Positions 2,068 through 16,883 of a stretch of DNA of 24,167 bases are shown here, piece by piece. How positions within the stretch are numbered: position 1 is the stretch's first letter; each line of letters opens with the position of its first letter. Below the pieces are notes generated by a model that had not been told where the DNA came from, made no database searches, and saw nothing but the letters and a program-made list of their open reading frames with translations. The stretch is taken from positions 1 to 24,167 of the IMG/VR virus record IMGVR_UViG_3300032173_000044; one strand, written 5' to 3'. Both the position numbers and the translations under genes were made by a program. This DNA is from a virus.

Positions 2068-2628
2068 TTATCTAAACGCTGGGCCGAGTGCCCAAGTAAC
2101 CGATGTATAACGCACGCCTGAGGTGACCGGCGTAACTCTGTGCAGCATGAACGAGGGAAACACAATCATATCCCCAGCGTCCTGTAGTAACCCGCGCTTC
2201 CATTCACCGCTCGGCATGCATAACTCAAGATCACCCCCTACAAACTCATTGCTATTGTTCAGCAATACCACTGCTGTCAGCTTACGCTGCAGGTTATCAG
2301 CATCAGGAGTCAGTGTATCTATGTGCTCAATGTAATGGCCCCCTTCTCGGTACCGACTTAGCTGCGTATCCCCCACGTAAGACAGGGCGTAGTTCCAACC
2401 GCACTCGATGTTAGCTGAAACGGTGAGGGACTGCGCAATGCAACTAACTGCACCGCGCGGCGGTGCCCATACTACGTCTGTCTTCCGAACTGAGTAATCA
2501 ATCTCAGTGATCTCACCCACTACCACACCTGCATTTATTGTATTACCCCAGTTAACTTGGTCTAGTTCTATACGACATACCGCAGGGTGCACGGCCTCAA
2601 GATTTAGTTGGTACGGTACTTTAATCAT
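2068..2628 (-). CDS. 2-oxoglutarate/Fe(II)-dependent oxygenase (PKHD/prolyl-hydroxylase type)
   Basis: 186 residues from the ATG at 2628. That ATG has GGAG seven bases upstream and overlaps the preceding TGA (TGATG); an ORF start ten codons earlier lies inside the upstream gene and is less likely. The double-stranded beta-helix signature is complete: His102-x-Asp104 in EHIDTLTPD, a GGDLEL strand, distal His163 in FPSFMLHRVTPV, and Arg173 in SGVRYTS for 2-oxoglutarate. The family hydroxylates protein or nucleic-acid substrates; phage members are common and mostly uncharacterised. It sits between the DNA polymerase and a nuclease, which hints at modification of a replication protein or of DNA, but that is inference. 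A copy of the 14-bp dyad lies in codons near the N-terminus. Confidence 0.88.
   Translation of the reverse strand: MIKVPYQLNLEAVHPAVCRIELDQVNWGNTINAGVVVGEITEIDYSVRKTDVVWAPPRGAVSCIAQSLTVSANIECGWNYALSYVGDTQLSRYREGGHYIEHIDTLTPDADNLQRKLTAVVLLNNSNEFVGGDLELCMPSGEWKRGLLQDAGDMIVFPSFMLHRVTPVTSGVRYTSVTWALGPAFR
2560..2573 (-). promoter_or_regulatory. Dyad-family site, one-arm variant (GTATAGAACTAGAC)
   Basis: Reading leftward, the direction of the gene, it is GTATAGAACTAGAC, one base from the consensus GTCTAGAACTAGAC. It falls inside the oxygenase coding region and encodes I-E-L-D. Confidence 0.5.
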
Positions 2629-2798: not shown

Positions 2799-4804
2799 TT
2801 AAATACCCCCTCAGTTTTACCGTAACTAAATCCCCAATCTGTCTCACAATCAAGTGGTAGTCCGGTGGCCCAACCAGGTGTTATTTTCATATTCGCGTGA
2901 ATCTCTTTCATTGCATCTTCCTTCTCTGACTCGGGTACACAGAAAACTATTTCGTCGTGCACTTGCAGTAACGGCCTGAATGTAGACCGCGCCATAATCT
3001 CTTTAACTACTATTGCTGCCAACGCTTGACTACAGTTCTCTGCTACGCCGCCACCATACACTTTAACCCTCTGCAACCTACCCTCCTTCTTCCTTACACA
3101 AGAATAATCAGTCTTGTTAAGCTCAAGGTCTTTGAAGTATAGCGGAAGTCTATTAGGAAGTAAAAGTTTATTTTTACGAACACCTAATAAATCTCCATCA
3201 CTTTCTTCCCCGCGATACATAGCGCCTACTACTTTCTCTAAGCTCTTCCACCACTGTGGGATAGCTGGGTTCTTTTCGCGGAAAGTATTTATGATACTGA
3301 ATGCGCATGCTACATGTGTTAGCCATACAACTCCGTCTAACGCTGAGGGTTTCAACTCTTCTAGACGCTGTACTAAATCCTTCTTATCAGCCACCCATCG
3401 GACGTAACTATCTACGTCTACATCAAGCATTTCAACCATATCATCGTCGAACAAAACACTAGGTCCACCCAACATTCCAGCGTACATCATACCGGCGAAC
3501 TTCATATGGCCGAGCCCATAACCGCATCCGAGAATTACGCATTTTCCAATAAATCCCGGGATATAATCTGCCTCTACCTTCTTTCTATCTACCGGCCTAC
3601 CAAAAATAACTGACGCCATATCTGAATACACATCCCTACCTTGTGCGAATGACTCAAGAACATCCTGCTGCCCTGCCTGCCATACAACAAGTCGTGCTTC
3701 GATCTGTGACAAGTCAGACGCTACTACTACCATACCCTTCGGCGCCTTAATAGACTTACGAAGTAACGCTGTATCGGGTGTATCTTTACCACGTACTGCC
3801 GGCATGTTCTGAGCGTTTATGGCCCCACCCGCCGCGTATCTCCCAGTGCTAGTACCATAGTAGTTAAGTGAGATCGGTAAGCGTTTCATACGATCATAAA
3901 TACCTTTAAATCGGGCTGCTCTAGAACCTTTAATCGTACTCTTTAATCCGAGCCTCGCTTCACAAGCAAACTGTACAAGCTCATTGTCCGATTCTGCTAA
4001 GGCTTTAAAGTCTGCATCGGTTTTTGAAAACGCATACGCCATCACCTGCACACCAGCCTTCTTACTTTTCTTTTCTGAAATTTTCATTGGTGGTTCAACA
4101 CCAAGGCCTCTAAGTACCTCAGCAAACTTCACATCAGACCGCAGGTCTTTCAGCTCGCACTGCGCACGCTCAAGCATGAACTTCTTTTTCTCCTCTACAA
4201 GCTCTAACTCTCTAAGTATCTCGGCCTCGCCTAGCTCAAATACAGGCTCGGTGAACATCCTGATCGTCTGGTCAATAACTTTGTAGTCTGTATGTGGAAA
4301 GCCCTTCGCTAATACATTAAACAACTTCCAAGTCAGAACTACATCGTTACAGCAATACTCTGCCATCGCCTTCTCACCTTCCAGTGACAAGTTCACTACA
4401 CCATCAGAGTTACTTAACTCAAAACCTTTTCTACCTAGTCCGAACTTTTCTGCTAGAGCATCTAGACCGTGGCGTTCCTCATTACCTACCACTGCACGCG
4501 CCATAGATAGCGTGTCAAATATACCCATCGGCTTGAATCCATACTTCCAAGTAAGAATAGCTATATCGAACGTGGCGTTGTGACAAAGAACAAAGTTCTT
4601 GTCTAGTTCTAGACTACCGAAGAACGCAGGTAACTTATCTGCTGTAACCCATCGCGCCGGGCCACCATTGAAACTATACCCACACCCATGCACTTTGAAA
4701 CGTGGGTCGTTTATGTACTCCTCTGTGGTCATATTTTTAAGACCATACCTAGCCTTAGTATCAAACACTGTTTCAAAATCCAAACAGTAAACGTCGTTAC
4801 TCAT
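2792..4804 (-). CDS. Family A DNA polymerase with 3'-5' exonuclease
   Basis: 670 residues, the size of T7 gp5-type replicases. The DEDD exonuclease is intact: LDFET (Asp9, Glu11), HNATFD (Asp80) and YCCND (Tyr150, Asp154). The polymerase domain has TGRYAAGG-INAQN (320-332), motif A VVVASDLSQIEAR (Asp364), motif B around GKCVILGCGYGLG (Lys421, Tyr429, Gly430) and motif C VHDE (616-618). Motif B has no arginine four residues before the lysine, a departure from the classical RxxxK helix of Pol I, although this GK(C/V)xILGxGYG form occurs in phage polymerases. It overlaps the VRR-NUC gene by eight bases at its start. It is the central replication enzyme of this phage. No single-subunit RNA polymerase is seen in the window. 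Confidence 0.97.
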   Translation of the reverse strand: MSNDVYCLDFETVFDTKARYGLKNMTTEEYINDPRFKVHGCGYSFNGGPARWVTADKLPAFFGSLELDKNFVLCHNATFDIAILTWKYGFKPMGIFDTLSMARAVVGNEERHGLDALAEKFGLGRKGFELSNSDGVVNLSLEGEKAMAEYCCNDVVLTWKLFNVLAKGFPHTDYKVIDQTIRMFTEPVFELGEAEILRELELVEEKKKFMLERAQCELKDLRSDVKFAEVLRGLGVEPPMKISEKKSKKAGVQVMAYAFSKTDADFKALAESDNELVQFACEARLGLKSTIKGSRAARFKGIYDRMKRLPISLNYYGTSTGRYAAGGAINAQNMPAVRGKDTPDTALLRKSIKAPKGMVVVASDLSQIEARLVVWQAGQQDVLESFAQGRDVYSDMASVIFGRPVDRKKVEADYIPGFIGKCVILGCGYGLGHMKFAGMMYAGMLGGPSVLFDDDMVEMLDVDVDSYVRWVADKKDLVQRLEELKPSALDGVVWLTHVACAFSIINTFREKNPAIPQWWKSLEKVVGAMYRGEESDGDLLGVRKNKLLLPNRLPLYFKDLELNKTDYSCVRKKEGRLQRVKVYGGGVAENCSQALAAIVVKEIMARSTFRPLLQVHDEIVFCVPESEKEDAMKEIHANMKITPGWATGLPLDCETDWGFSYGKTEGVFKC
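4601..4614 (-). promoter_or_regulatory. Dyad-family site, exact copy
   Basis: GTCTAGAACTAGAC on the minus strand, inside the polymerase exonuclease domain, encoding S-L-E-L-D. It is in the sense orientation of the gene. Confidence 0.6.
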
Positions 4805-6232: not shown

Positions 6233-6294
6233 CAAGAACCTCAGTTTGCTTGTCAGTCAGCACTGGAAGGTGCTCAATGCTTTCTGCGAACTCG

Positions 6295-6702: not shown

Positions 6703-6742
6703 TTAATCTCATCCACCAGTTAGTTAATAGCTGTTGCCTAGA

Positions 6743-7207: not shown

Positions 7208-7218
7208 TTCTATATACC

Positions 7219-7356: not shown

Positions 7357-7638
7357 TCATTTCAAATCCTTCCCAAAATCTTGCCACGCGCCACAGTTCG
7401 GGCAATAGATCCCTTCTACCGTAACCTGAAACAAATCATTGCCACATCCACATTGCCAGTGGCTATCGTTCCAGTAGTGAGGGTGAATAAACCGACCGCG
7501 CACTAGGCTGCATGATGGGCATTCAAGCCACTCTGTTCCAGTTGGCGCTACGCCTTGCCATTCATGCTTGCAATCTAAGCAACGAGCTTGGCCTTGTATG
7601 TGAGGCTTGTATTCGCTGAGATTAACAACGTTGTTCAT
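7357..7638 (-). CDS. Zinc-ribbon protein, 93 residues
   Basis: ATG at 7638 (MNNVVNLSEYKPHIQG) is chosen because GGAAGG lies just before it; the longer ORF start lies inside the upstream gene. Two zinc-binding units are visible: CLDCKHEW with ECPSC, then CGCGN with YCPNCGAW. Each offers paired cysteines as in rubredoxin-like zinc ribbons. The N-terminal NVVNLSEYKPH occurs in phage zinc-ribbon proteins I recognise only as hypothetical. It probably binds nucleic acid or a host protein; no partner is evident. Confidence 0.7.
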   Translation of the reverse strand: MNNVVNLSEYKPHIQGQARCLDCKHEWQGVAPTGTEWLECPSCSLVRGRFIHPHYWNDSHWQCGCGNDLFQVTVEGIYCPNCGAWQDFGKDLK

Positions 7639-7639
7639 T

Positions 7640-7828
7640 TCAATCCTTCCAGCACGAGATTGCCGCACCATCTGAAGTGGACATAGTTGCACAGGTTATT
7701 CCAGCTTTAGGCGATACAAGGTTAATCGGCGTTGTCGCTTGAGAGAACAATCTAATTCCATATACCGCAGCAAATACAATCACGAATGCGATTAGCCCAA
7801 GCGCAAGCATTTCAAGTAATTTTTTCAT
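7640..7828 (-). CDS. 62-residue small membrane or exported protein
   Basis: ATG at 7828 with AAAGGAG upstream. MKKLLEMLALGLIAFVIVF is a lysine-plus-hydrophobic N-terminus, either a signal anchor or an uncleaved signal. The rest is short and polar with two cysteines (TCATM and ISCWKD) that could form a disulfide outside the cytoplasm. It resembles the membrane protein at 8150-8335 in architecture: an N-terminal membrane segment, then a small two-cysteine tail. Confidence 0.65.
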   Translation of the reverse strand: MKKLLEMLALGLIAFVIVFAAVYGIRLFSQATTPINLVSPKAGITCATMSTSDGAAISCWKD

Positions 7829-8001
7829 TTCAACTCCTTTAATCTATCTGATATGTGCAAGTCATTCATACTCCACGGCGCAGCCCATGTTTCCATCACT
7901 AGCTTGTGCATATCCTCTCGGCCTTGTTGGTAACAGGCGTTGGCTAGATTAGCTAATCTAATATCATGTGCAATTCGTCCATCTCCAACTCTTCGATGCG
8001 C
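7825..8001 (-). pseudogene. Startless frame with a YQQGREDM segment, probable gene remnant
   Basis: This frame is open for 58 codons but has no ATG, GTG or TTG until ATG at 7911. Its sequence LANACYQQGREDMHKLVMETW resembles FAQECYQLGQKDMYEH in the gene at 5978-6208, so it looks like real coding sequence that lost its beginning. It ends with the TTG-AAA-TGA junction feeding the next gene. Either a frameshift separated it from the 66-residue gene at 7953, whose last 16 codons it overlaps, or recombination fused two modules. A 28-residue product from 7911 is possible. Confidence 0.4.
7945..7960. repeat. 16-bp perfect palindrome TAGATTAGCTAATCTA
   Basis: Perfectly self-complementary with no central spacer. 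It contains the stop codon of the 66-residue gene and could be a dimer-binding operator or a 3' mRNA structure. No promoter elements were found beside it. Confidence 0.6.
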
Positions 8002-8153
8002 TTAAGCAGTGGTGCGCGTCCTGATTGCCAAGCTGAAAGTGCGGCAAAGTGCTCATCTTTTTCTGGGCTTGGGTTTTCTACTACATCTTCTCTGCCCCAA
8101 AAATCGTGCGTCCACCATTCCCCAAACAATTCATGCTCTTGATCGCCACTCAT
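7953..8153 (-). CDS. 66-residue small phage protein
   Basis: ATG at 8153 overlaps the stop of the upstream membrane-protein gene (AAATGAG). It has an acidic aromatic N-terminus (ELFGEWWTHDFWGRED), a middle DEHFAALSAWQSGRAP and a coiled C-terminus ending EMDELHMILD. The W-Q-x-G-R module is a pattern seen in small phage accessory proteins. The C-terminus stops inside a 16-bp palindrome, and another frame there looks more protein-like, so the present end may come from a frameshift. Function unknown. Confidence 0.6.
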   Translation of the reverse strand: MSGDQEHELFGEWWTHDFWGREDVVENPSPEKDEHFAALSAWQSGRAPLLKRIEELEMDELHMILD

Positions 8154-8335
8154 TTCAATTTCTCTACTTTTGCACAAATTACGCTACCGTTATACGTAAT
8201 CATAGAGCCTTCTTTTGATGTACATTCGGCGGTGCGATACGAGCTACGCTCATCTATCTTACCCAGAGCAAAACCAACAGTAAGACAGGTAATAATTATA
8301 ACTATGCTTACTACTACATTTGGAATAACATTCAT
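8150..8335 (-). CDS. 61-residue small membrane protein
   Basis: I use ATG at 8335 (MNVIPNVVVSIVIIIT) rather than the TTG two codons earlier, because AAAGG is then eight bases upstream. One strong membrane segment (VVVSIVIIITCLTVGFAL) leads into GKIDERSSYR and a two-cysteine tail (ECTSKE and VICAKV). Its layout parallels the 62-residue protein at 7640-7828. A role at the host inner membrane is inferred only from the hydrophobic segment. Confidence 0.65.
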   Translation of the reverse strand: MNVIPNVVVSIVIIITCLTVGFALGKIDERSSYRTAECTSKEGSMITYNGSVICAKVEKLK

Positions 8336-8337
8336 TT

Positions 8338-8865
8338 TCAACCTTTCACAATTTTAACTTTATGCCCAAGAATCTTTTCGATCTGGGCGACAGTCACTTC
8401 GACAGTCGCTTCAACAGCTTGATTCCTAGCGTTAAAGTCGGTTTCAGTAAGGCGCTCACCGTTTATAAACCATTCTTTTGTTCCATCTACATATTCACAA
8501 GCAGGACCATCTTCACGATGGCGTTCACCGTTTTTAAACCATTCTTTTGATCCATCTGCATATTCACAAGCAGGACCATCTTCACGATGTAATTTACCGT
8601 TTTTAAACCATTCTTTTAATCCGCCTGCATATTCAATAGCTGGACCATCTTCACGATGGAGTTCACCGTTTTTATACCACGCTTTTGTTCCATCTACATA
8701 TTCACAAGCTGGACCATCTTCACGATGACGTTCATCGTTTATATACCAGTATTTTAATCCATCGGCATATTCAATAGCCGGACCATCTTCACGATGGAGT
8801 TCACCTGCTTCATTATACCAACGCATATCTCCATGCGAATCAACTTCTACTTTATATGTTTTCAC
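8338..8865 (-). CDS. Tandem HREDGPA repeat protein (MORN-like)
   Basis: About 175 residues. I prefer the GTG at 8865, as AGGGGG lies five bases before it; another GTG two codons earlier overlaps that site. Five nearly identical units of 23-24 residues follow one another, each of the form W(Y/F)xNGxxHREDGPAxEYxDGxK. This is a MORN-like repeat known from phages, giant viruses and some bacteria, without a settled function. The C-terminal tail VEVTVAQIEKILGHKVKIVKG is a short (L)GxKVKIVK motif that recurs at the ends of other phage proteins and may be a separate binding element. The repeats probably form a beta-hairpin stack for protein or lipid contact. Confidence 0.8.
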   Translation of the reverse strand: MKTYKVEVDSHGDMRWYNEAGELHREDGPAIEYADGLKYWYINDERHREDGPACEYVDGTKAWYKNGELHREDGPAIEYAGGLKEWFKNGKLHREDGPACEYADGSKEWFKNGERHREDGPACEYVDGTKEWFINGERLTETDFNARNQAVEATVEVTVAQIEKILGHKVKIVKG

Positions 8866-8944
8866 TTTCACCCCCTAAAAAATCCAACAGTAAACCAACC
8901 GTGTACTTCTTACCAATTCTCAAAAAGTTTTCTCTCTCGTTCAT
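8852..8944 (-). CDS. 30-residue coupled ORF, unknown
   Basis: ATG at 8944 overlaps the TGA of the pentapeptide gene (ATGA), and the stop lies just inside the HREDGPA gene, whose ribosome site AGGGGG it contains. The peptide begins MNERENFLRIGKKYTVGLLL. Its main role could be translational coupling. Confidence 0.5.
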   Translation of the reverse strand: MNERENFLRIGKKYTVGLLLDFLGGESENI

Positions 8945-9786
8945 TTCATCCTCGCAATTCTCTGCTGGTGTCCAAGTGACATTGACAAAATAAATCCACC
9001 CCATTCCTTCCACCAGTCAAGCGCGCCTGAATCCATTCTTTCAATTTCTTCATCGGTGAAATTAGTCCACTCTTCGTGAGAATGAAACTCGCATCCGATT
9101 TTGATGTGGTTGTCTAAAATAAGCACGAAATACCTTGTACCTAAAACTTGTAGCGGCTGAATAGAGATTTTTAAACCGTTGTTGTAAGTAGCACCGAGCA
9201 AGTCAGCACCGCACAAGTCAGCACCGCACAAGTCAGCACCGCGCAAGTTAGCTTCGCGCAAGTTAGCTCTGAGCAAGTCAGCACCGCACAAGTCAGCACC
9301 GAGCAAGTCAGCACCGCACAAGTCAGCACCGCACAAGTCAGCTTCGCGCAGGTCAGCACCGCGCAGGTCAGCACCGCGCAAGTTAGCTTCGCGCAAGTTA
9401 GCTTCGCGCAAGTTAGCTTCGCGCAAGTTAGCACCGCGCAAGTCAGCTTCGCGCAGGTCAGCACCGCGCAGGTCAGCACCGCGCAAGTCAGCACCACTAA
9501 AGTTAGTACCGCGCAGGTCAGCACCGCGCAAGTTAGCTTCGCGCAAGTCAGTACCGAGCAAGTTAGCACCACTAAAGTCAGCACCGCGCAAGTCAGCACC
9601 ACTAAAGTTAGTACCGAGCAAGTTAGCACCACTAAAGTCAGCACCGAACAAGTTAGCACCACTAAAGTCAGCTTCGCGCAAGTTAGCTTTTGATCTACAA
9701 GCCGCTTCAACACATAATTTAATTGATGTTGTTTCGAGACTAAACATAACCGACCCAGTAAACCTGTTTTTAATTTCAAATTTCAT
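8941..9786 (-). CDS. Pentapeptide-repeat protein, 281 residues
   Basis: The start MKFEIKNRFTGSVMF at 9786 is chosen for the GGGGAGGGG upstream and because this N-terminus is shared by phage pentapeptide proteins. About 34 consecutive A(D/N)LxG/A(D/N)FSG units form a right-handed quadrilateral beta-helix. The C-terminal domain (IQPLQVLGTRYFVLILDNHIKIG, then a DEEIERMDSGAL segment) is the non-repetitive cap found in many phage versions. Function is not established for the phage family; Qnr/MfpA relatives mimic DNA and bind gyrase. The DNA itself is a near-perfect 15-bp tandem array, so unit number is likely variable. Confidence 0.92.
   Translation of the reverse strand: MKFEIKNRFTGSVMFSLETTSIKLCVEAACRSKANLREADFSGANLFGADFSGANLLGTNFSGADLRGADFSGANLLGTDLREANLRGADLRGTNFSGADLRGADLRGADLREADLRGANLREANLREANLREANLRGADLRGADLREADLCGADLCGADLLGADLCGADLLRANLREANLRGADLCGADLCGADLLGATYNNGLKISIQPLQVLGTRYFVLILDNHIKIGCEFHSHEEWTNFTDEEIERMDSGALDWWKEWGGFILSMSLGHQQRIARMK
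9178..9690. repeat. 15-bp coding microsatellite (pentapeptide array)
   Basis: A few 15-base unit types recur, such as GCAAGTCAGCACCGC and GCAAGTTAGCTTCGC. Identity between neighbours is high enough to point to recent expansion or recombination. It is coding, not a CRISPR array: there are no unique spacers. Confidence 0.9.
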
Positions 9787-9787
9787 T

Positions 9788-9913
9788 TCAAACCCCTCCC
9801 CAATATCCCACCCAAAAAACAACACACATAATTAAAATCAGGCGCGGTATGGTTAGTCCGAGCGAGTGCATTGTGTCAATGACGATCTCTCTAATTGTGT
9901 AGGCTCTCATCAT
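9788..9913 (-). CDS. 41-residue small membrane protein
   Basis: Starts at ATG-ATG 9913, with AGGGG upstream, over the stop of the preceding gene (AGATGATGA). A hydrophobic stretch PRLILIMCVVFWVGYWGG makes up its C-terminal half. The stop is separated from the pentapeptide ATG by one base. Unknown family. Confidence 0.6.
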   Translation of the reverse strand: MMRAYTIREIVIDTMHSLGLTIPRLILIMCVVFWVGYWGGV

Positions 9914-10257
9914 CTAACCCCTAAAGAATGTACTCGACCCTTCGGCACAGGTACGGGTTTCATAAACAAGTCAGACCATACGCCGCCGACTTCCGCATCT
10001 ATTTTATAACCTGAGCTCACGGCTTTACGGCAGTACACGTTCATCGCCTTACCTCCTTCGGGTCGGCGCTTAGTTGCAACGGCTGCTATCAATGGCTCTT
10101 TCACTTTCACGAGGTCAACAATAGTTCGTGCGACCTGCGGCGTTGTGTACTGCGGAAGCTGCGCCGCGATGTCTTTTGCCGTGAACTCCTTCCCCGCTGG
10201 AACAGCGTTAATGACTGCTGTCACTTCGTTGACCCTGCCATACCGTCTAGTGTTCAT
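9910..10257 (-). CDS. 115-residue protein with a winged-helix-like N-terminal half
   Basis: Residues about 8-50 (VTAVINAVPAGKEFTAKDIA, then QVARTIVDLVK) have the rhythm of a winged helix used by DNA-binding regulators: helix, FTAKDIA, turn, helix. The next part (AVATKRRPEGGKAMNVYCRK) could be the wing. The C-terminal third is unfamiliar. It is one of few proteins in the window that might bind DNA specifically, but the HTH assignment comes from pattern only. The start overlaps the stop of the small membrane gene upstream. Confidence 0.6.
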   Translation of the reverse strand: MNTRRYGRVNEVTAVINAVPAGKEFTAKDIAAQLPQYTTPQVARTIVDLVKVKEPLIAAVATKRRPEGGKAMNVYCRKAVSSGYKIDAEVGGVWSDLFMKPVPVPKGRVHSLGVR

Positions 10258-10376
10258 AACCCTGCTCCCCAGTAAACGACTGCATACACCATAGCGACTA
10301 GCGTTACTACGACTAGGGCTTCCATCGCGTAGATGGAGAGCATGCTCTCGGGTTCTTCGTATTCAATTCTGTTCAT
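10254..10376 (-). CDS. 40-residue small membrane protein
   Basis: ATG at 10376 follows GGAGGAG-TGCAC, among the best ribosome sites in the window. The first 14 residues are acidic; the rest is a membrane segment (MEALVVVTLVAMVYAVVYW). The TGA overlaps the ATG of the next gene. Confidence 0.65.
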   Translation of the reverse strand: MNRIEYEEPESMLSIYAMEALVVVTLVAMVYAVVYWGAGL

Positions 10377-10417
10377 GTGCACTCCTCCGAATGTTATTTA
10401 CTATATACCCATCGGCG

Positions 10418-10585
10418 TCATTTGTCTAGTTCTAGACTCTCTTCCTTGCGCCGTTTGCGTTCATCGTCTGCTGCATCACACGCGGCTTCAAACCCATCTT
10501 CATCAGCCCACTGGCTGTCTAAATAGGTGTAGAGTTCACGCTCAAAATATCTATCTTCGGGGTGATTCCCGTAGCATCCAGCCAT
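10418..10585 (-). CDS. 55-residue acidic protein, unknown
   Basis: ATG at 10585 with AAGGAG seven bases upstream. It begins MAGCYGNHPEDRYFERELY and ends with a charged helix DDERKRRKEESLELDK. The last codons (S-L-E-L-D) contain an exact dyad site at 10424-10437. No family recognised. Confidence 0.65.
   Translation of the reverse strand: MAGCYGNHPEDRYFERELYTYLDSQWADEDGFEAACDAADDERKRRKEESLELDK
10424..10437 (-). promoter_or_regulatory. Dyad-family site, exact copy at a gene end
   Basis: GTCTAGAACTAGAC in the sense direction, three bases from the stop codon of the 55-residue gene and 47 bases upstream of the next ATG (10376). Confidence 0.6.
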
Positions 10586-10600
10586 AATAGTTCTCCTTAA

Positions 10601-10969
10601 TTATTCACCAAACCAAAACCGCTGGCAGTATGCAAGCAGTGCCTCTCTATCAAGGTTAGCCCCAAAATACTCTGTCCAAGGCGTACCCCAGTCTTGATAC
10701 TGAAGTCGAGGCCGCGCTGGCTGCATATACTCATCCAAGTCTCCGATGATGCGAACCGCCGGGCCGCCAGTACATAAGAGAATCTCAAACTCCTCAGGTG
10801 AATACGCATCACCGGGGGTGTACCAGCCGCTGCGAACCTGAACGCTCAGTGGGTCTTCTTGGATGCGTCGTTCTGCATCTTCGTAGTCAACAGCAAGCGT
10901 AGCAACCATCTCTGCGATAGCATTCATTTGGGCGGCTGCTTGTTGTAGTGCATGGTTTTCTTCATTCAT
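10601..10969 (-). CDS. 122-residue conserved-type phage protein
   Basis: An N-terminal helix (NEENHALQQAAAQMNAIAEMVATL) leads to a compact alpha/beta part with WYTPGDAYSPEEFEILLCTGG, PAVRIIGDLDEY and a closing LAYCQRFWFGE. I recognise this WYTPG...EFEILLCTGGPAVRIxGDL pattern from hypothetical proteins of diverse phages, with no known function. The start overlaps the preceding stop (ATGA). Confidence 0.7.
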   Translation of the reverse strand: MNEENHALQQAAAQMNAIAEMVATLAVDYEDAERRIQEDPLSVQVRSGWYTPGDAYSPEEFEILLCTGGPAVRIIGDLDEYMQPARPRLQYQDWGTPWTEYFGANLDREALLAYCQRFWFGE

Positions 10970-11163
10970 TTCGGCATCTCCTCATTTAACCAAAAATCAA
11001 TTACTTCCCAAGTGATACCTATGGTGCAATCGTGAAAGTAGTCCATCCTCTCGAGAACCCAAGCGGCTTTCTTCTTACCGCACTTTACGCCGCTGCTTTT
11101 TGCGTGCATCAGTATATCTTCCACGCACCACGTAATTACTAATTCGCCTTTATCGTTAATCAT
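10966..11163 (-). CDS. 65-residue conserved-type phage protein
   Basis: ATG at 11163 is chosen because GGAGG lies seven bases ahead and it overlaps the peptidase stop (ATGA). The pattern ITWCVEDIL, a helix ending AAWVLERMDYFHDCTIGITWEVIDFWL, matches a small domain met repeatedly in phage accessory regions (W-x-x-E-D-(V/I), then H-D-x-x-x-G-I-x-W). Function unknown. Confidence 0.65.
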   Translation of the reverse strand: MINDKGELVITWCVEDILMHAKSSGVKCGKKKAAWVLERMDYFHDCTIGITWEVIDFWLNEEMPK

Positions 11164-12134
11164 TTCATTTCCTCCCCGTAAAACCAACTCCATGCTTTGT
11201 CCTGTGCTGCTACTTCGTAACTACCCCCTCCGCCCTTCGTATCAATTAGCATCTCAGCCACTGCATCGGGGTTCTGGTACACGTAGTCATATATATCCTC
11301 ATCATCCATCCGCATGATGTCGTCGAAGCTCATGATTTCATGACTGGTCTCATTTCTCCAGCTTGTCCATTTATCTTCCACTGCAGGGTCGCGGCTAACA
11401 GGTAGCGAATCCCAGTCTAGTTCTAGACACACATCCCGCAAGGTAAAAAGAAAGTCTACATCCTGCGTCTCGTTTCCGCTGTGCTGGCTTGCATACCCGC
11501 ATGATATGTTCGTGCACTCAGGGATAAGGGCAACCCACTCCGCTGTATCTGTATACACCCCGGTATCATCCGGACGGTACTCGAACCCCGAGACGTTCAA
11601 CTTGTCACTCAACGCCTGGGCAAAATCATCCGAGCAGCATCGTCCCCACCCTTGGTGCGTTATCACATCCTTAGTACCCGCACGGTCAAAGGCAATCGCC
11701 CGGTCGAACTCACGCATAAAGCCTGAGCAGTTATCAGCCACCCATCGCGCCCCCACCCCGCCGCGCTCCTCTCCTACGGTATACATGAACGTACCCTTCA
11801 CACCCGCCTTCATCATCTCGAACAGTAACCAAACTCCTGCGCCATCATCCGCACCCAGTGCTGTGCCATCTGTCTTATACATAATGCCCAGCTCTTGGTC
11901 ATACTGTACAGGGTTTGGTTCTTTCTCATCATTGTGTACCGTGTCCAAGTGTGCGACGAACAGCGTGCTCGACTCTTCGTCTGTAGTGTAGATGTACGCC
12001 ATCACCTGTCCCTTATCGTTGCATGAAGTCACAAACTCCATCGGCATCTGACTCATCAAGTGTTGCCCGATATACACCTCATTACGCCCGCCATGCGGAC
12101 GCTTAAGGTTTAGGATTTCTAATAGTGTGTTCAT
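11160..12134 (-). CDS. M20/M28-like zinc metallopeptidase
   Basis: 324 residues. The co-catalytic two-zinc signature is complete: AHLDTVH (His62, Asp64), GADDGAG (Asp96), GEERGGVG (catalytic Glu122, ligand Glu123), AFDRAG (Asp150) and YASQHSG (His218). These match the H-x-D...D...EE...D...H series of M20, M28 and M42 aminopeptidases. The usual dimerisation insert of M20 is missing, so a compact M28/M42-like form is likelier. The last 100 residues are acidic and unfamiliar. The presence in a phage is unusual; the substrate could be a host peptide or an amidated small molecule. The strong ribosome site CCGGAG precedes ATG 12134, 12 bases after the 518-residue gene, so the two are co-transcribed. 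Confidence 0.85.
   Translation of the reverse strand: MNTLLEILNLKRPHGGRNEVYIGQHLMSQMPMEFVTSCNDKGQVMAYIYTTDEESSTLFVAHLDTVHNDEKEPNPVQYDQELGIMYKTDGTALGADDGAGVWLLFEMMKAGVKGTFMYTVGEERGGVGARWVADNCSGFMREFDRAIAFDRAGTKDVITHQGWGRCCSDDFAQALSDKLNVSGFEYRPDDTGVYTDTAEWVALIPECTNISCGYASQHSGNETQDVDFLFTLRDVCLELDWDSLPVSRDPAVEDKWTSWRNETSHEIMSFDDIMRMDDEDIYDYVYQNPDAVAEMLIDTKGGGGSYEVAAQDKAWSWFYGEEMK
11415..11428 (-). promoter_or_regulatory. Dyad-family site, exact copy in the peptidase gene
   Basis: GTCTAGAACTAGAC in sense direction inside the peptidase gene, encoding C-L-E-L-D about 90 codons before its end. Confidence 0.6.
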
Positions 12135-12146
12135 GTATATCTCCGG

Positions 12147-13703
12147 TTATGCTGCTAAGCGTTGCGCTTGTTGTTCTTCCTCGCGCATCATCTTCGCTAA
12201 AAGGCCACACATCAAACTGTTATGCGGTAGGCCTGTGGCAAAATTCCTAGACCAATTACCTGCCTTAACGAACTCTTTATAAGCTGTATAGATATCCTTT
12301 AAACAGATGTACATGCTACGCAATAGCTCACAGACCGCTGCATACTCATCACTATCCTCGTGCACCCAATCACCATCGACAAGGTATAGACTGCCCTTAT
12401 AGTCACCCAGTTCACCATCCAGAATATAAATCCCCCCGTTTGAATTCTCTCCGACTTTGCAAACATCTTCTGAGTGCTGGGTGTTCCCATCAATGTCCGC
12501 CACGGAATCATCTATGTTTATCCACTCATTCCTGCTCTCAGCGTAGGTTAAATCAAATTCGCTAAGGTCTAGGCTGTCCAGATAACAGGTATCGTTACAC
12601 TCAACATAAGTAACACTATCAACGTGTACATACTCTTCGTTCCCTCGGAGGTCTACCACTGCGTACCTGTAGTAGCCGTCTAGGCACGCCTGACACACCA
12701 TCCCGTTATCTTCGACATATGTCATGTTATCTTCGTCTGCATAGTCCCCGCAGTTGCAGCACTGCTCACCTTGGTCGCCCTGAGTTACCCCGTCATAAGT
12801 GTTCCCATCGGTAGTATCAATATCCCCGCCTCTAACGCATAACTCCCAGTAATCCGCAGCTTCGTCCGCATGTAACGCACCGCCGCTTGAACCTATCCCG
12901 CGATCCACATAGGGCATGATGTACCCCGAACCGTTACGATTCTCTATCTTACGCAGACGACATCCAGTGAGTGCCCCAACTTCCGGCTCGATGCCTAACA
13001 GTGCCAGCGCGGGTTCGAGTTTATCCTTGTCCCCGTAGATACGGCTACACTTCCTATTGTTAACTAGGGTTCGAGCCGAGATGTTACCGTCAGCATCTTC
13101 CAACCATGCAATTTGAATATCCCCGTAGGCATACGCCGCCGCTGGGTGCACGTGTCCTTTGTAACTCATCCCCTGCATGCAACTCTCGGTACACCCTTTG
13201 TCAATCACGCGGATAAAGTCTTCCTCAGCCTCAGAGAATTTAACCTCTTGTTCTTTCCCATGATGATAGTTGAACACGTTCGTGATGTGCTTGATTGCCT
13301 CGTTATCAATATCAGGGTTAAGGCGGCGCAGATACCTACCTAGTCCGACCCGCAGCTGCAAGTCACGCTTACCCTTATCCTCGTTCTCCGTGAACGCAAC
13401 CATCGCTTGCTCCGTCCCGCCTTGGGCTACATGCAGGAAGTGTAGATAGGGTACGCCTATGTCGTTGTTATGAATCGCCTGTCGCACAGGCAAGGCTAAG
13501 GGTTCATACGCACCGCTATCCATGCGGAGCTGCTCGCGCCACTTCCAGAATGACTCTTCGTCTACGCCACCCAGCGGCGCGCTTCCGTTTAGGCCTAGTG
13601 CGTAGTCGTTGTATGGTTTGTCTGTATCCTGCACCATCACATCGAGCAGCAGCTCCATTGAATTGATCTTGGAGCTGTAGTGATTTATAGATTCTCTTGG
13701 CAT
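12147..13703 (-). CDS. 518-residue protein with zinc-finger-like cysteines, unknown
   Basis: AAGGAG precedes the ATG. Three parts can be seen. Residues 1-200 are mixed alpha/beta with GLGRYLRRLNPDIDN. Residues about 215-275 hold a conserved-looking block (KCSRIYGDKDKLEPALALLG, then GCRLRKIEN, YIMPYVDRG). Residues 315-430 hold C-C-x-C-G-D-Y and VCQACLDGYY, a C4 zinc knuckle, followed by repeated acidic strands (EYVHVDSVTYVECNDTCYLD, EWINIDDSV). The end is helical. I know this kind of protein only as a phage hypothetical. It shares an operon with the metallopeptidase, suggesting a common process. It has two dyad sites in its leader. Confidence 0.7.
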   Translation of the reverse strand: MPRESINHYSSKINSMELLLDVMVQDTDKPYNDYALGLNGSAPLGGVDEESFWKWREQLRMDSGAYEPLALPVRQAIHNNDIGVPYLHFLHVAQGGTEQAMVAFTENEDKGKRDLQLRVGLGRYLRRLNPDIDNEAIKHITNVFNYHHGKEQEVKFSEAEEDFIRVIDKGCTESCMQGMSYKGHVHPAAAYAYGDIQIAWLEDADGNISARTLVNNRKCSRIYGDKDKLEPALALLGIEPEVGALTGCRLRKIENRNGSGYIMPYVDRGIGSSGGALHADEAADYWELCVRGGDIDTTDGNTYDGVTQGDQGEQCCNCGDYADEDNMTYVEDNGMVCQACLDGYYRYAVVDLRGNEEYVHVDSVTYVECNDTCYLDSLDLSEFDLTYAESRNEWINIDDSVADIDGNTQHSEDVCKVGENSNGGIYILDGELGDYKGSLYLVDGDWVHEDSDEYAAVCELLRSMYICLKDIYTAYKEFVKAGNWSRNFATGLPHNSLMCGLLAKMMREEEQQAQRLAA

Positions 13704-13720
13704 TTTAATTCTCCTTAATA

Positions 13721-13778
13721 TCGTTTCGTGGTTTAGTTCTATACTGCTTCATCTCGTTTCGTGGTTTAGTTCTATACT
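13721..13778 (-). repeat. 25-bp tandem leader repeat (33-bp period) with two dyad variants
   Basis: 13721-13745 and 13754-13778 are identical over 25 bases and begin 33 bp apart, about three helical turns. Each includes GTATAGAACTAAAC (minus strand; 13731-13744 and 13764-13777), a dyad-family variant whose right arm is imperfect. The upstream copy includes the stop codon of the 92-residue gene; the downstream copy ends 17 bases before the 12147-13703 start codon. Confidence 0.75.
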
Positions 13779-14050
13779 TCGTTTAACACCGTTACCATAT
13801 AGCGGTCATTGTCGTAACAGTCCACGAAGTCTCCGGCGGGTACGCCTTCAAGGTCTATAATTTTCGCAATGCTATACAGCGTTACTGATGCAGAGTTAAA
13901 GGTTATCTTCCATCCTGTCGTTTCGCGCACTAGGTCATACTCCAACTTAGTGACGCCTTGATCACCATCACCTGTGATCAGTCGGGTTAGTTTTGTTTCG
14001 ATGCGGCGGGTGCGCGATGCAATGTCTGTCAGCAGTTCGTTTGGGTTCAT
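13772..14050 (-). CDS. 92-residue phage protein, unknown
   Basis: AAAGGAACATC precedes the ATG. A helical N-terminus (ELLTDIASRTRRIETKLTRLI) is followed by a beta-rich part (KLEYDLVRETTGWKITFNSA, then VPAGDFVDCYDNDRYMVTVL). No family recognised. Its leader contains an exact dyad, and a good promoter lies at 14119-14147. Confidence 0.7.
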   Translation of the reverse strand: MNPNELLTDIASRTRRIETKLTRLITGDGDQGVTKLEYDLVRETTGWKITFNSASVTLYSIAKIIDLEGVPAGDFVDCYDNDRYMVTVLNEV

Positions 14051-14071
14051 GATGTTCCTTTCATATTTTAC

Positions 14072-14085
14072 GTCTAGTTCTAGAC
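14072..14085 (-). promoter_or_regulatory. Dyad-family site, exact copy in a 5' leader
   Basis: GTCTAGAACTAGAC between the 14119-14147 promoter and the ribosome site of the 92-residue gene, 21 bases before its ATG. Confidence 0.7.
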
Positions 14086-14118
14086 CGCTTGGTGTTCTTT
14101 GTTTCTCAACGGTGTGGC

Positions 14119-14147
14119 ATTATGGCATAAATACCTAAGCAAATCAA
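14119..14147 (-). promoter_or_regulatory. Leftward sigma70-like promoter
   Basis: Minus strand TTGATT, 17 bases, CATAAT (4/6 and 5/6). Transcription should start near 14112, giving a leader of about 60 bases that holds the dyad at 14072. Confidence 0.65.
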
Positions 14148-14154
14148 CCCCTTG

Positions 14155-14292
14155 TCAGTTCTTAACCCATATCACCTCAATCCGCCCATCCGGTAGGCAC
14201 TCTTTGCACGCGAGGGTAAAACCCAGTTTGCGCATTGTATAAGCCCCACGCTCAAAGAGGTACGCACTACTATAGGTCAGGGTTCTTCTCAT
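14155..14292 (-). CDS. 45-residue basic protein
   Basis: ATG at 14292 overlaps the TGA of the upstream mini-gene (ATGA) and GGAG lies shortly before. The peptide begins MRRTLTYSSAYLFERGAYTM and ends with a strand EVIWVKN; two cysteines occur at ACKEC. The open frame extends upstream to 14631, but that extension runs back through the promoter at 14477 and is not coding. Confidence 0.6.
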   Translation of the reverse strand: MRRTLTYSSAYLFERGAYTMRKLGFTLACKECLPDGRIEVIWVKN

Positions 14293-14396
14293 GGCAGCTC
14301 CTTTAAGGCTCGTAGCTCCTGTACGGTGAGCTTCAGATACTTGATTATCGTCATCGTTGCCACGATGCGCCCAGCGTTGTTCTTTATCGTTTTCAT
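14289..14396 (-). CDS. 35-residue first gene of the leftward operon
   Basis: ATG at 14396, with AAAGGA eight bases before. The peptide starts MKTIKNNAGRIVATMTIIKY and continues LKLTVQELRALKELP, a basic helical peptide. It is the first ORF behind the strongest promoter in the window and is coupled to the next gene by ATGA. Too short to classify. Confidence 0.55.
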   Translation of the reverse strand: MKTIKNNAGRIVATMTIIKYLKLTVQELRALKELP

Positions 14397-14409
14397 TTTG
14401 TGTCCTTTC

Positions 14410-14423
14410 GTATAGTTCTATAC
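14410..14423 (-). promoter_or_regulatory. Dyad-family site, symmetrically changed copy in a 5' leader
   Basis: GTATAGAACTATAC, in which the third base of each arm has changed together (C-G to A-T), so the 5- or 6-bp dyad stays perfect. It lies directly against the AAAGGA ribosome site of the gene at 14289 and downstream of the 14477-14505 promoter. Confidence 0.75.
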
Positions 14424-14476
14424 TGTTAAGGCAGTTTGAAAGTGTTCTTTTGCCCCTTTTTTCAGGATAGGGATAT

Positions 14477-14505
14477 ATTGTAGCATATAATGACCTTGTT
14501 GTCAA
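14477..14505 (-). promoter_or_regulatory. Strong leftward promoter (candidate early promoter)
   Basis: Minus strand TTGACA, 17 bases, TACAAT: a perfect -35 and a 5-of-6 -10 at ideal spacing, the best sigma70 match in the window. It would transcribe leftward into the long replication arm. The spacer contains AACAAGGTCATT (minus strand), also found at 15036-15047 on the plus strand. A plus-strand TATAAT at 14486-14491 overlaps it, suggesting back-to-back promoters. Confidence 0.85.
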
Positions 14506-14518
14506 TAGGGGGTCAATC

Positions 14519-14626
14519 GTGAATGATGCAAAGGGTGTTTTACGAAGGCAATGGGCGGAGAGGGGTGAGGTTCTTAACGTGCTAGGAATTTCCGGTTTAA
14601 AAACCGTGAGAAACGCATTAAGGTAA
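14519..14626 (+). CDS. 35-codon rightward ORF, HTH-like peptide
   Basis: GTG at 14519 has AGGGGG six bases upstream, and a plus-strand TATAAT lies at 14486-14491 but without a good -35. The peptide starts MNDAKGVLRRQWAERGEVLN and ends VLGISGLKTVRNALR. The LGISxxxTVRNAL pattern is like the second and third helices of a helix-turn-helix. Its position opposite the strongest early promoter is that of a Cro- or repressor-like gene. It is very short and could be chance. Confidence 0.4.
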   Translation: MNDAKGVLRRQWAERGEVLNVLGISGLKTVRNALR

Positions 14627-15030
14627 AGCATTAAAAATCATGGACATAGGGGTAAAGGTGGGGGAGGGGGTTGTTTAGGTGGAACAAATGGGGAACGCCC
14701 GCTGGGTATAGGAAAGATTGTGCGAGAGTTGCATCTGTGCTGTTTTTTCAAACATATATGGGAGTTCCTACGAAAAAGAGCGCACCAGCACGACCGAAAA
14801 AGAAAAGACATCTCTCTGTCTATATATATATAAATTTAATTAAATATAATAAAGAATACACACCACACCCATTGCAGCCGTGCGGGTTCTTCGGTTTGCT
14901 CCACCCTCACAACCCCCGCAACTTAAAAAGTCTAACAATGCCTTCCGGCTAGCCCCTCCAAACCCATGCTCCCTATGGTTGCAAGCCTCTGTTCCACCTC
15001 AATGTTCCTTTCTCAATTTTGACGGTGTTA
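14627..15030. other. Gene-poor region with AT-rich block inside an inverted repeat
   Basis: No convincing gene. A G-rich tract (14655-14672) is followed by AGGTGGAACA at 14677-14686, and its exact reverse complement TGTTCCACCT is at 14990-14999. Between them lies an AT-rich block at 14820-14857 (alternating TA then TAAATTTAATTAAATATAAT). GTGGAACA recurs at 15032-15039. Such an arrangement of short sites around an easily melted block is compatible with a replication origin or a repressor-controlled switch. An open frame at 14671-14952 crosses it but has no ribosome site and biased content. Confidence 0.4.
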
Positions 15031-15031
15031 T

Positions 15032-15058
15032 GTGGAACAAGGTCATTTGTGGTATGCT
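15032..15058 (+). promoter_or_regulatory. Candidate rightward promoter and operator
   Basis: An extended -10, TGG-TATGCT (15050-15058), without a recognisable -35. Upstream are GTGGAACA (15032-15039) and AACAAGGTCATT (15036-15047), the 12-mer that also occurs on the other strand in the spacer of the leftward promoter at 14477. It would serve the gene starting at 15085. Confidence 0.45.
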
Positions 15059-15084
15059 GGACGCTTCAAAACTTGGAGAACATC

Positions 15085-15795
15085 ATGGCTACTCACTACG
15101 GAATTGAAGAGAAAATTAAGAGCGCACACACCCGATACTTGGATATGCAAGCCGCCTACAACCACATGCCTGAATCGCGGAGCGTGGCTAAGTCGCTGCA
15201 AGATGCCTACAATCGGTTGGATACGCTCATACAGGCCTACAACAACCCCGACACCCCTAAGAAGGCCTGCGCGGTGTGCAACACCCTTCGATTTGAACGC
15301 TATGACTATGTGCGGAGAGGTCGTGTTCGGTCTGATGTGTGTGTACGGTGCGAGGGTAATCTGTATGCGAAGCGCTACATGCAAGCGAAACGTGAGAGTA
15401 AGAAGCAGCTGGAGAGTGCCATAAGCTCGTCAGGAGGCCGCCTAAGCCATTTAAAACGTGCTCAGGTACGTGTGGCCTTGCTCGCGGACTACAAAGCGGC
15501 TACAGCGGCTCTGAGGCGGCGTATCAAGCTCCTTATGGGGAAACAGGATGGCTACACACTTATGGCAGCGCAGGGTATTGCCTACAACAGTCGAACACTG
15601 GTTCGGGTGAGTAACAATCTGCTCGTAGCTAAGGCTCAGATGGGGTTGATTGATTCATTGTTGAAAGACCAGTTGGCGGACGTGGAGAACGGGGTTATGC
15701 CTAGCGACATCAACGACCTGATCAAAGCAAATAAAATCCTCCTGAGTATGGCAGAGGAAGTGCGAGGGGCTACCGGTCGTCTAGAACTAGACTGA
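15085..15795 (+). CDS. 236-residue protein with a C4 zinc site, isolated rightward gene
   Basis: ATG at 15085 (MATHYGIEEK) has GGAG six bases before; the longer open frame from 15019 covers the promoter region and is rejected. After a helical N-terminus comes a four-cysteine module CAVC (62, 65) and CVRC (86, 89), separated by 20 basic residues, likely a zinc ribbon. The rest is mostly helical and basic, ending GRLELD. It stands alone on this strand between two leftward operons, with a promoter sharing a 12-mer with the early leftward promoter. A regulator is a reasonable guess, but no family is recognised. The last codons hold an exact dyad. Confidence 0.75.
   Translation: MATHYGIEEKIKSAHTRYLDMQAAYNHMPESRSVAKSLQDAYNRLDTLIQAYNNPDTPKKACAVCNTLRFERYDYVRRGRVRSDVCVRCEGNLYAKRYMQAKRESKKQLESAISSSGGRLSHLKRAQVRVALLADYKAATAALRRRIKLLMGKQDGYTLMAAQGIAYNSRTLVRVSNNLLVAKAQMGLIDSLLKDQLADVENGVMPSDINDLIKANKILLSMAEEVRGATGRLELD
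15779..15792 (+). promoter_or_regulatory. Dyad-family site, exact copy at a gene end
   Basis: GTCTAGAACTAGAC on the plus strand, sense to the 15085 gene, immediately before its TGA. Confidence 0.6.
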
Positions 15796-15860
15796 CGACT
15801 ATGCGCGGACGACTATGGACTTTCATGACTGATGCGAGTTTCCGCTGGGGGTGTGGTTTG

Positions 15861-15874
15861 GTCTAGAACTAGAC
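15861..15874 (+). promoter_or_regulatory. Dyad-family site, exact intergenic copy
   Basis: GTCTAGAACTAGAC on the plus strand, 65 bases past the end of the 15085 gene and just before the twin leftward terminators. Non-coding, so no amino-acid constraint explains it. Confidence 0.7.
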
Positions 15875-15877
15875 GAG

Positions 15878-15902
15878 AAAAACCCCGCTGGCTAGGCGGG
15901 GT
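15878..15902 (-). terminator. Intrinsic terminator, second of a pair
   Basis: Reading leftward: ACCCCGC, seven-base loop, GCGGGGT then TTTTT. It backs up the similar terminator at 15919-15945 for the operon starting at 16788. Confidence 0.8.
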
Positions 15903-15918
15903 AAGAAAATGAGGGCGT

Positions 15919-15945
15919 AAAAAAGCCCCGCTGGTTAGGCGGGGC
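15919..15945 (-). terminator. Intrinsic terminator, first of a pair
   Basis: Reading leftward: GCCCCGC, seven-base loop, GCGGGGC then six T. It lies 15 bases beyond the stop of the 58-residue gene. Stem and loop are nearly identical to the next terminator, so one is likely a duplicate of the other with C-G to A-T changes at the base. Confidence 0.88.
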
Positions 15946-15959
15946 AGTAGGGTTGTGGA

Positions 15960-16136
15960 CTAGTAGGCGGCATTTTCTATCTGATACACCTCGGCCAGTG
16001 TCGCGCCGCGATGATGTAGGGAGTTTTCTGCCACCACGATGTCATGCAAGCTCACACCCTGCGGTAGGGTAAAATCTAACATATCGGTAAAGTCTAGGTC
16101 ATACAGTGTTGCGAAGTCTTCTAAAGTTTGGCTCAT
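15960..16136 (-). CDS. 58-residue acidic protein, unknown
   Basis: ATG at 16136 with AGGAG nine bases before. It begins MSQTLEDFATLYDLDFTDML and continues LPQGVSLHDIVVAENSLHHR, an acidic alpha/beta peptide. It is the last gene of the short leftward operon, behind a UUCG hairpin. No family recognised. Confidence 0.7.
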   Translation of the reverse strand: MSQTLEDFATLYDLDFTDMLDFTLPQGVSLHDIVVAENSLHHRGATLAEVYQIENAAY

Positions 16137-16158
16137 GATATATAACTCCTTTGGTTAT

Positions 16159-16174
16159 GCGCCCCGAAGGGCGC
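16159..16174 (-). other. GCGCCC-UUCG-GGGCGC hairpin between genes
   Basis: In leftward mRNA this forms a 6-bp stem closed by C(UUCG)G, an exceptionally stable tetraloop. No T run follows, so it is more likely an mRNA stabiliser or partial terminator than a full terminator. Confidence 0.7.
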
Positions 16175-16175
16175 G

Positions 16176-16189
16176 GTCTACTTCTAGAC
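16176..16189 (-). promoter_or_regulatory. Dyad-family site, loop variant (GTCTAGAAGTAGAC)
   Basis: Both outer arms are intact; only the loop-side base differs. It begins at the stop codon of the 199-residue gene and directly precedes the UUCG hairpin. Confidence 0.6.
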
Positions 16190-16788
16190 TACTTGGCTGA
16201 AAGACCGGCTTTGATTGCCTTCGCTTGTGCGGCGGTGATTGCACCTTTGTCTAACATTTGAGCGGTATATTCAGCGAGGAAGGCCGAAACTGCAAACTTT
16301 GACGCCTTTGTTGCCTCGGCTGTTACCTTGTCCGCGTCTGTTTCTTTTGCTTCGCCCACTTTAACCTCAACCACAATTAGCCCGCATTTTTTCGCAGCGG
16401 TATGGATTAGGTCGATATTTACGGCTGTTTTACGTTCGGCATTTTCAATAACGAGATTTACGGCGGCGGTCAGCTTAGCGGCTTTTTTCGCATCTAGCGC
16501 GATGGCTTTAACTACAGCTGACAGCTTGTTGAGAGTTTGCCATCCTTTCGCGGTGCGGTGTCCTAGAATCTTTGTCGCGCTGAATTCGGGGATCAACACT
16601 CCGTTTGCTACTTGCAAGGCTAAAAGGTTTTGTTGCGCGTCATTTATCGCCTTTGCTTTAACGATGAGGGCGACATCCAGAGCCTTCGCGGGTATCTCAA
16701 CCTTGTTTAATGTTCGGGTAGTAACGCCGTCCACTTTAGTAAATACGACGTTAACAAGGGCTTCAATAGAATTGTTATAAGTGTTCAT
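16189..16788 (-). CDS. 199-residue alanine/lysine-rich protein, unknown
   Basis: AAAAGGAAACACC precedes the ATG, and a good promoter lies at 16837-16864. The protein is mostly helical and rich in Ala, Lys and Val, with no cysteine cluster or membrane segment; it starts MNTYNNSIEALVNVVFTKVD and ends ITAAQAKAIKAGLSAK. The separate strong promoter, twin terminators and stable hairpin suggest high expression. A DNA-associated or abundant early protein is possible, but nothing identifies it. Confidence 0.75.
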   Translation of the reverse strand: MNTYNNSIEALVNVVFTKVDGVTTRTLNKVEIPAKALDVALIVKAKAINDAQQNLLALQVANGVLIPEFSATKILGHRTAKGWQTLNKLSAVVKAIALDAKKAAKLTAAVNLVIENAERKTAVNIDLIHTAAKKCGLIVVEVKVGEAKETDADKVTAEATKASKFAVSAFLAEYTAQMLDKGAITAAQAKAIKAGLSAK

Positions 16789-16836
16789 GGTGTTTCCTTT
16801 TCTTAGGTTAGCCCGCTTTGATTAGCGAGTGTTGCC

Positions 16837-16864
16837 ATTATACCTTAACGAATAGAAATAGCAA
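16837..16864 (-). promoter_or_regulatory. Leftward promoter with perfect -10
   Basis: Minus strand TTGCTA, 16 bases, TATAAT (4/6 and 6/6), giving a leader of about 40 bases for the gene at 16189-16788. Confidence 0.75.
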
Positions 16865-16869
16865 GCGCA

Positions 16870-16883
16870 GTCTAGAACTAGAC
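16870..16883 (+). promoter_or_regulatory. Dyad-family site, exact copy between divergent promoters
   Basis: GTCTAGAACTAGAC on the plus strand, six bases upstream of the leftward -35. Non-coding. Its position would allow a bound protein to affect the leftward promoter. It is the only copy not clearly inside a predicted transcript. Confidence 0.65.

Follow-up and report, generated by a model that had tools for sequence, protein, structure and literature searches.

Private dyads at matching places in related tailed phages as probable operators of an early-region regulator with diverged specificity

Regulators of the Lambda CI and phiC31 type bind as dimers to palindromic operators at several early places, one of them beside the regulator's own promoter, and IncP plasmids carry global palindromic operators. 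Regulation in the IncP plasmid RK2 has been modelled (PMC3199767). In cluster A mycobacteriophages, most stoperators face the same way with respect to transcription, and from phage to phage their motifs have diverged (PMC6550527, PMC9283540). Mor of phage Mu uses, at the middle promoter Pm, a dimer site of two 5-bp inverted repeats beside the promoter core, centred at -43.5 (PMC4390567), and the SAS/ESAS elements of cluster K mycobacteriophages are a repeated motif just upstream of the ribosome sites of some genes, ESAS being an inverted repeat (PMC3203893). Here we compare with these systems a family of dyads found in a 24,167-base viral record (the window), a fragment of a tailed-phage genome with a terminase 43-46% identical to those of Pelagibacter phage HTVC027P, phage 023Pt_psg01 and phage DSL-LC04.

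The consensus GTHTAGAASTADAC occurs 12 times in the window against an expectation of 0.00, with no shuffle scoring as high, and allowing up to one mismatch from GTNTAGNNCTANAC recovered the identical 12 sites (expectation 0.70; Table 1). Fourteen bases are conserved, without conservation of the flanks, and they form two facing GTHTAG half-sites with AA between them. Five of the sites lie within genes (2560, 4601, 10424, 11415 and 15779), all read in the frame x-[LI]-E-L-D; the only other stop-free frame through them, SRTR, is used in none. The final bases of the dyad at 10424 overlap a promoter-like match, TAGACA-17-TATAGT, and a 33-nt tandem duplication at 13708-13773 places two one-arm variant dyads in a single leader. 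At 11 or 12 of the 12 sites the sense strand of local transcription carries the central AA (p 0.006 or 0.0005), the count depending on whether 16870 is given the direction of terS or that of p199, and this bias holds across strand switches from 2560 to 16883. A symmetric dimer offers no explanation for it.

Table 1. Dyads and associated features in the window and in related phages.
Genome	Feature	Coordinates or copies	Strand	Context
Window	Dyad GTATAGAACTAGAC	2560..2573	-	One-arm variant within 2OG-Fe(II) oxygenase gene; RIELDQ
Window	Dyad GTCTAGAACTAGAC	4601..4614	-	Within DNA polymerase A gene; SLELDK
Window	Dyad GTCTAGAACTAGAC	10424..10437	-	End of small ORF 10418-10585; SLELDK-stop
Window	Dyad GTCTAGAACTAGAC	11415..11428	-	Within gene 11160-12134; CLELDW
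Window	Dyad GTATAGAACTAAAC	13731..13744	-	Leader of gene 12147-13703; one-arm variant; within 33-nt tandem duplication
Window	Dyad GTATAGAACTAAAC	13764..13777	-	Second copy in the 33-nt tandem duplication shared with 13731
Window	Dyad GTCTAGAACTAGAC	14072..14085	-	Leader of gene 13772-14050; site of the sequence-only reading
Window	Dyad GTATAGAACTATAC	14410..14423	-	Left (-) operon leader, one base 5' of AAAGGA; site of the sequence-only reading
Window	Dyad GTCTAGAACTAGAC	15779..15792	+	Extreme end of gene 15085-15795; encodes R-LELD-stop
Window	Dyad GTCTAGAACTAGAC	15861..15874	+	Position c: just beyond (-) terminators of p199 operon
Window	Dyad GTCTAGAAGTAGAC	16176..16189	-	Position b: gap between p199 and next small gene
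Window	Dyad GTCTAGAACTAGAC	16870..16883	+	Position a: 5 nt upstream of -35 of p199 promoter
Window	Promoter-like TTGATT-17-CATAAT	14119..14147	-	9/12; before gene 13772-14050
Window	Left operon promoter TTGACA-17-TACAAT	14477..14505	-	11/12; best sigma70-like promoter in scanned 13.3 kb
Window	p199 promoter TTGCTA-16-TATAAT	16837..16864	-	10/12
Window	p199 gene, 199 aa	16189..16788	-	Candidate DNA-binding regulator; family searches gave no meaningful match
Window	Small gene, 58 aa	15960..16136	-	Downstream of p199
Window	Two terminator-like hairpins	15882..15945	-	End of p199 operon
Window	Convergent gene, CxxC..CxxC zinc-ribbon-like pattern	15085..15795	+	Weak similarity to L130 4549-5010, pairwise E 0.001
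G001/L130 (TerL 73%)	Dyad TACGCGTAG-N4-CTACGCGTA	6294, 5404, 5045, 2885		5 nt before TTGACA; between genes; after terminator; in leader, before ribosome site
L129 (TerL 74%)	GGACN4ACAA half-sites	1313, 479, 25		2 nt before TTGACA; between genes; after terminator
L133 (TerL 49%)	Dyad TTATCCTAGGATAA	1765, 1041, 625/517		
L228	Dyad CCACGCATGCGTGG			
L245	Dyad GTATTAGTTAATAC	x11		
L262	Dyad GTACAATTTTGTAC	x7		
L298	Dyad TGTACGTCCGTACA	x11		

Other elements of the window were recorded beside the dyads. The sequence AACAAGGTCATT is found at about 14487-14500 (-), in the spacer of the left operon promoter, and at 15034-15048 (+), just before the divergent (+) gene, and is possibly a second regulatory motif. 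A GCGCCC-TTCG-GGGCGC hairpin at 16159-16175 directly follows the dyad at 16176 in the gap between p199 and the small gene. Farther left, a gene of 69-nt HREDGPA-type repeats stands beside a pentapeptide-repeat gene of 15-nt units (8338-8871 / 8941-9825).

Two of the dyads, at 14410 and 14072, had been singled out in the sequence-only reading as lying in leaders, and this was borne out: the minus strand has GTATAGAACTATAC at 14423-14410 and GTCTAGAACTAGAC at 14085-14072, both non-coding. The former was placed correctly behind the strongest promoter and against AAAGGA, from which one base separates it; the latter does lie behind the promoter at 14119, though the 9/12 class to which this promoter belongs is at chance level (21 matches against 18.8 expected). 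Leader placement also recurs elsewhere: in 16 phages, 29 of 102 dyads have a start within the next 45 nt downstream, which holds for 11% of random positions. Leaders are a real placement of the dyads, but one among several. The symmetric C-G to A-T change at 14410 (positions 3/12) is likewise real. As a general rule, paired change of the arms did not hold, since single arms have changed at 2560 (A..G), at 13731 and 13764 (A..A, both stemming from one tandem duplication) and at 16176 (position 9 alone). A covariation check on the arms gave pair statistics no higher than those of shuffles, the observed count being reached in 291 of 500. With three sites changed in one arm and covariation no better than shuffled, the symmetric change at 14410 is weak evidence.

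That change had been taken to indicate either an RNA stem or a dimer-binding DNA site, with free change of one arm counting against a stem; such change occurs within the window itself (2560, 13731/13764). Hairpins in mRNA leaders, with a 5-bp stem and a 4-nt loop serving an RNA-binding protein, translation tuning or mRNA processing, would fit the AA of the loop on the sense strand and the leader enrichment, and 14410 and 14072 are among the 5 of 12 sites that form the 5-bp hairpin in local context. Against this, folding energy is -2.9 kcal/mol for the canonical 14-mer and only -0.8 kcal/mol for 14410, 3 of the 12 sites are unfoldable, five lie in genes, and an Rfam search for the dyads gave no match. 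In the relative L133, the sole change affecting both arms concerns the two bases at the centre, between which no pair can form in a hairpin. Because the dyad at 16870 precedes the p199 promoter, the p199 transcript does not contain it. Of the features expected from a leader RNA, then, neither compensatory stem change nor a location within the controlled transcript was seen, 16870 and its equivalents in relatives standing upstream of the -35. Stems in leader RNA do not account for the window dyads in general, and we regard an RNA element as very unlikely; it is the DNA half of the proposed alternative that is supported, among other things by 16870 and the recurrence of its arrangement in relatives.

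In the closest relatives by TerL the dyad of the window itself is absent, and a reading of this absence as lack of conservation was overturned by the dyads of their own that these phages carry at matching places. Sixteen relatives (G001/L130, L129, L133 and 13 others mapped in detail; TerL 48-74% identical) each have a private repeated dyad, for instance CGTAGN4CTACG or GTATTAN2TAATAC. When 79 further TerL relatives were scanned blind for repeated dyads, 14 proved to have a private family of 14-bp dyads, and 79 block-shuffled sequences yielded none; 13 of the 14 were mapped in detail, L253 being omitted with three copies only. The layout of positions a, b and c around the p199-type gene is common to the window, G001/L130, L129 and L133, which have four different dyads (Table 1). 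Judged from these sequence comparisons, the relatives settle the predicted level of action of the dyads as DNA. An exact-motif scan of viral contigs returned at least 118 stretches; among the matches listed, two copies occurred only in L067 (122 kb), and these were taken as chance because a reversed-pattern control scored higher. Scans via the DNA polymerase and a 518-aa early protein found no relatives.

Several further elements came to light in these genomes. Tandem repeats GCCGTAGCCGCTGC of G001, picked up by k-mer scan, proved to be a coding repeat, and the same type of scan showed a GTTTAAAC family in L202/L134. LexA-type winged-helix genes or ORFs lie directly upstream of TerL in L144 (6842-7280), L134 (3318-3569) and L202 (8252-8503); ahead of the L144 gene, which has a Pfam LexA_DNA_bind match, runs a series of GCTAAAACTAGC-type dyads in a single orientation. 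In L218 (Synechococcus phage MinM2), CAGCCTGAACC / ATCCGGTTCAG occurs 14-16 times, several copies being in gene gaps. The freshwater relatives L148-L206 (e.g. L153:6525-, 7308-, 7657-) carry a distinct leader element, a small hairpin whose stem varies between leaders and whose loop is often GAGA-like (CTGTC-GAGA-GACAG, TTGGC-GAGA-GCCAA), followed about 7-14 nt on by an invariant ribosome-site box (A)ACTGCTAGGAG; with 38 distinct leaders, this hairpin looks like a real RNA element.

We next considered the dyads that adjoin promoters. In eight promoters of p200, the equivalent of the p199 gene in relatives, from seven phages, the distance from dyad centre to -35 is 12, 12, 14, 15, 7, 10, 12 and 12 nt, spacings that are approximate since the -35 boxes were picked by best score; no dyad abutting a -35 was found in L245, L298, L262, L256 or L254. 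A protein search with the p200 of L223, L228 and L244, the type that we call family A, added 79 loci, at least one of which is the L223 record again. In 73 family A loci (L306-L378), CCACKN4MGTGG occurs 214 times against 3 in shuffles, distributed among 55 of these loci and with 60 distinct spacers, counts that are not independent because some loci are near duplicates. For 113 family A genes the upstream DNA was long enough to search; at a cut-off of no more than one mismatch, 55 of them have an upstream dyad, against 4 with shuffled DNA, and about half have no site. In 38 of the 55, exactly 3 nt separate the dyad from a -35-like box downstream (e.g. TTTACA, TTTACT), a spacing subject to the same choice of box by best score, making the promoter-abutting site the most regular class of dyad. 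A second dyad, CGCTAATTAGCG, is present just upstream of the TCACG dyad at the p200 promoters of L223 and L300-L306.

These sites bear on three of the alternatives. Partition, packaging or replication sites, akin to parS or to KorB operators, would account for repeated palindromes over one genome arm with several inside genes, and they share a likeness with the global palindromic operators of IncP plasmids; the exact 3-nt placement before -35-like boxes speaks for transcription control instead, and no ParA/ParB-like protein is present among the selected window proteins scanned, so that this reading is highly improbable. Against an RNA stem, the arms of the CCACG family are not significantly associated: at the variable fifth position, 107 G-C and 11 T-A pairs stand against 37 G..A and 14 T..C (Fisher p = 0.09). 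Arms that vary independently are as expected for two half-sites read separately in duplex DNA. Spacer orientation is mixed in L245, L262 and L244, which counts against a hairpin loop and also against directional, stoperator-like roadblocks of the kind known from cluster A mycobacteriophages, which would halt RNA polymerase during elongation in a single orientation, with p200 as an immunity-type repressor. Roadblocks would explain the scatter of sites along one operon, within genes as well as between them, the strong orientation bias in the window and the motif divergence among relatives; all dyad families examined are nevertheless symmetric, with asymmetry confined to the central bases, where stoperators are asymmetric, and promoter-abutting sites are the most regular. 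We therefore consider roadblocks unlikely, while keeping a directional component as a possibility, because the stoperators of cluster A have a similar orientation bias.

Which protein would read the dyads was approached through p199 and p200. No homologue of p199 was detectable, and searches of p200 against PHROGs, Pfam, and PDB sequences and folds gave no match; neither protein has a Mor-family match in Pfam or an HTH family or fold match. The single-sequence model of p199 was discarded (pLDDT 42). The family A p200 model (pLDDT 91.8) matched nothing among solved structures or a viral model library, and profile comparisons found no homology between p199 and family A, or between family A and p200 of the L129/L130 type. 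Half-sites follow the p200 lineage, being TCACG for L223-like proteins (48-100% identical to L223 p200) and CCACG for distant homologues (label permutation p = 0.0007, ignoring relatedness), and unrelated p200 proteins go with unrelated dyads; in L129 and L130, p200 is related (46%) and the dyads are dissimilar. The link between p200 and half-site is confounded with overall relatedness. Since the promoter is the most constant target, the protein diverges as fast as the dyad and the half-site follows its lineage, p199/p200 is the best candidate binder.

The binder might instead be another phage protein, such as the zinc-ribbon-like product of 15085-15795 or that of a gene beyond the 24-kb fragment, with p200 only the most constant target. 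The window is only part of a genome, no DNA-binding domain is recognisable in p200, a zinc-ribbon-like protein is also found at the matching place in G001, and LexA-like winged-helix genes or ORFs lie near other dyads in L144 and L202/L134. The constancy of the p200 promoter as target and the shift of half-site with p200 lineage point the other way, and among the other early gene families examined none is shared by all dyad-bearing loci. We rate an alternative binder as a possibility of some substance, short of an even chance.

Taken together, the dyads are probably DNA operators of a phage-encoded dimeric regulator of the early region, whose specificity has diverged between relatives; a dimer would bind each dyad, and p199/p200 would most likely be that binder. 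A p199 dimer would read the two GTHTAG half-sites across AA. At its own promoter, beside the -35, it could activate or autoregulate p199, much as Mor acts from its dyad at Pm; beyond promoters, whether in a leader, between genes or within one, it would hinder RNA polymerase, turning early genes down. Divergence of specificity between related phages would leave each with its own operator. The sequences of the window and its relatives thus suggest a widespread, undescribed phage control system of fast-diverging specificity. More tentatively, p200 may be a phage master regulator of a new DNA-binding class, with a fold unmatched in PDB or viral models, and many versions of it would occur in a large uncultured tailed-phage lineage; each version would recognise a palindrome of its own, both at the promoter of its gene and throughout the early region, insulating relatives from each other's control. 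If so, p200 versions with private palindromes could provide an immunity-like specificity. Such a control layer would be predictable from sequence in phages known almost only from metagenomes, the putative operator of each being readable from its genome with the candidate regulator adjacent. Were p200 the binder, natural p200-operator pairs would form a data set on the divergence of DNA-binding specificity and would reveal early-gene control in phages without a recognised regulator.

Compared with known systems, the window resembles L5-type stoperators in its many short sites scattered over the early region, in promoters and gene gaps, in motif divergence among relatives and in orientation bias (11-12 of 12), unlike the mixed orientation of L245, L262 and L244. 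L5-type stoperators are asymmetric 13-mers bound by a monomer, whereas the dyads here are symmetric with a variable centre, several lie in genes, and the candidate p199/p200 has no HTH match. The Mor site has the same layout as CCACG-N4-CGTGG against the -35, half-site, spacer and half-site adjoining the promoter core, but Mor replaces the -35 at one promoter, while here a -35-like box stands beside the dyad and further dyads occur in leaders and genes. With SAS/ESAS the dyads share a repeated motif shortly ahead of some ribosome sites, but SAS is tied to translation starts; the present dyads are phage-specific in sequence and also occur within genes, past terminators and ahead of a -35. As with Lambda CI and phiC31, palindromic sites occupy early control regions, one at the candidate's own promoter; in contrast to those systems, p199/p200 has no CI-like or other known repressor domain, and the locus is known from an incomplete 24-kb fragment. 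Control through the dyads probably belongs to a known general kind, the multi-site operator system, and its specificity is unusually diverse across relatives.
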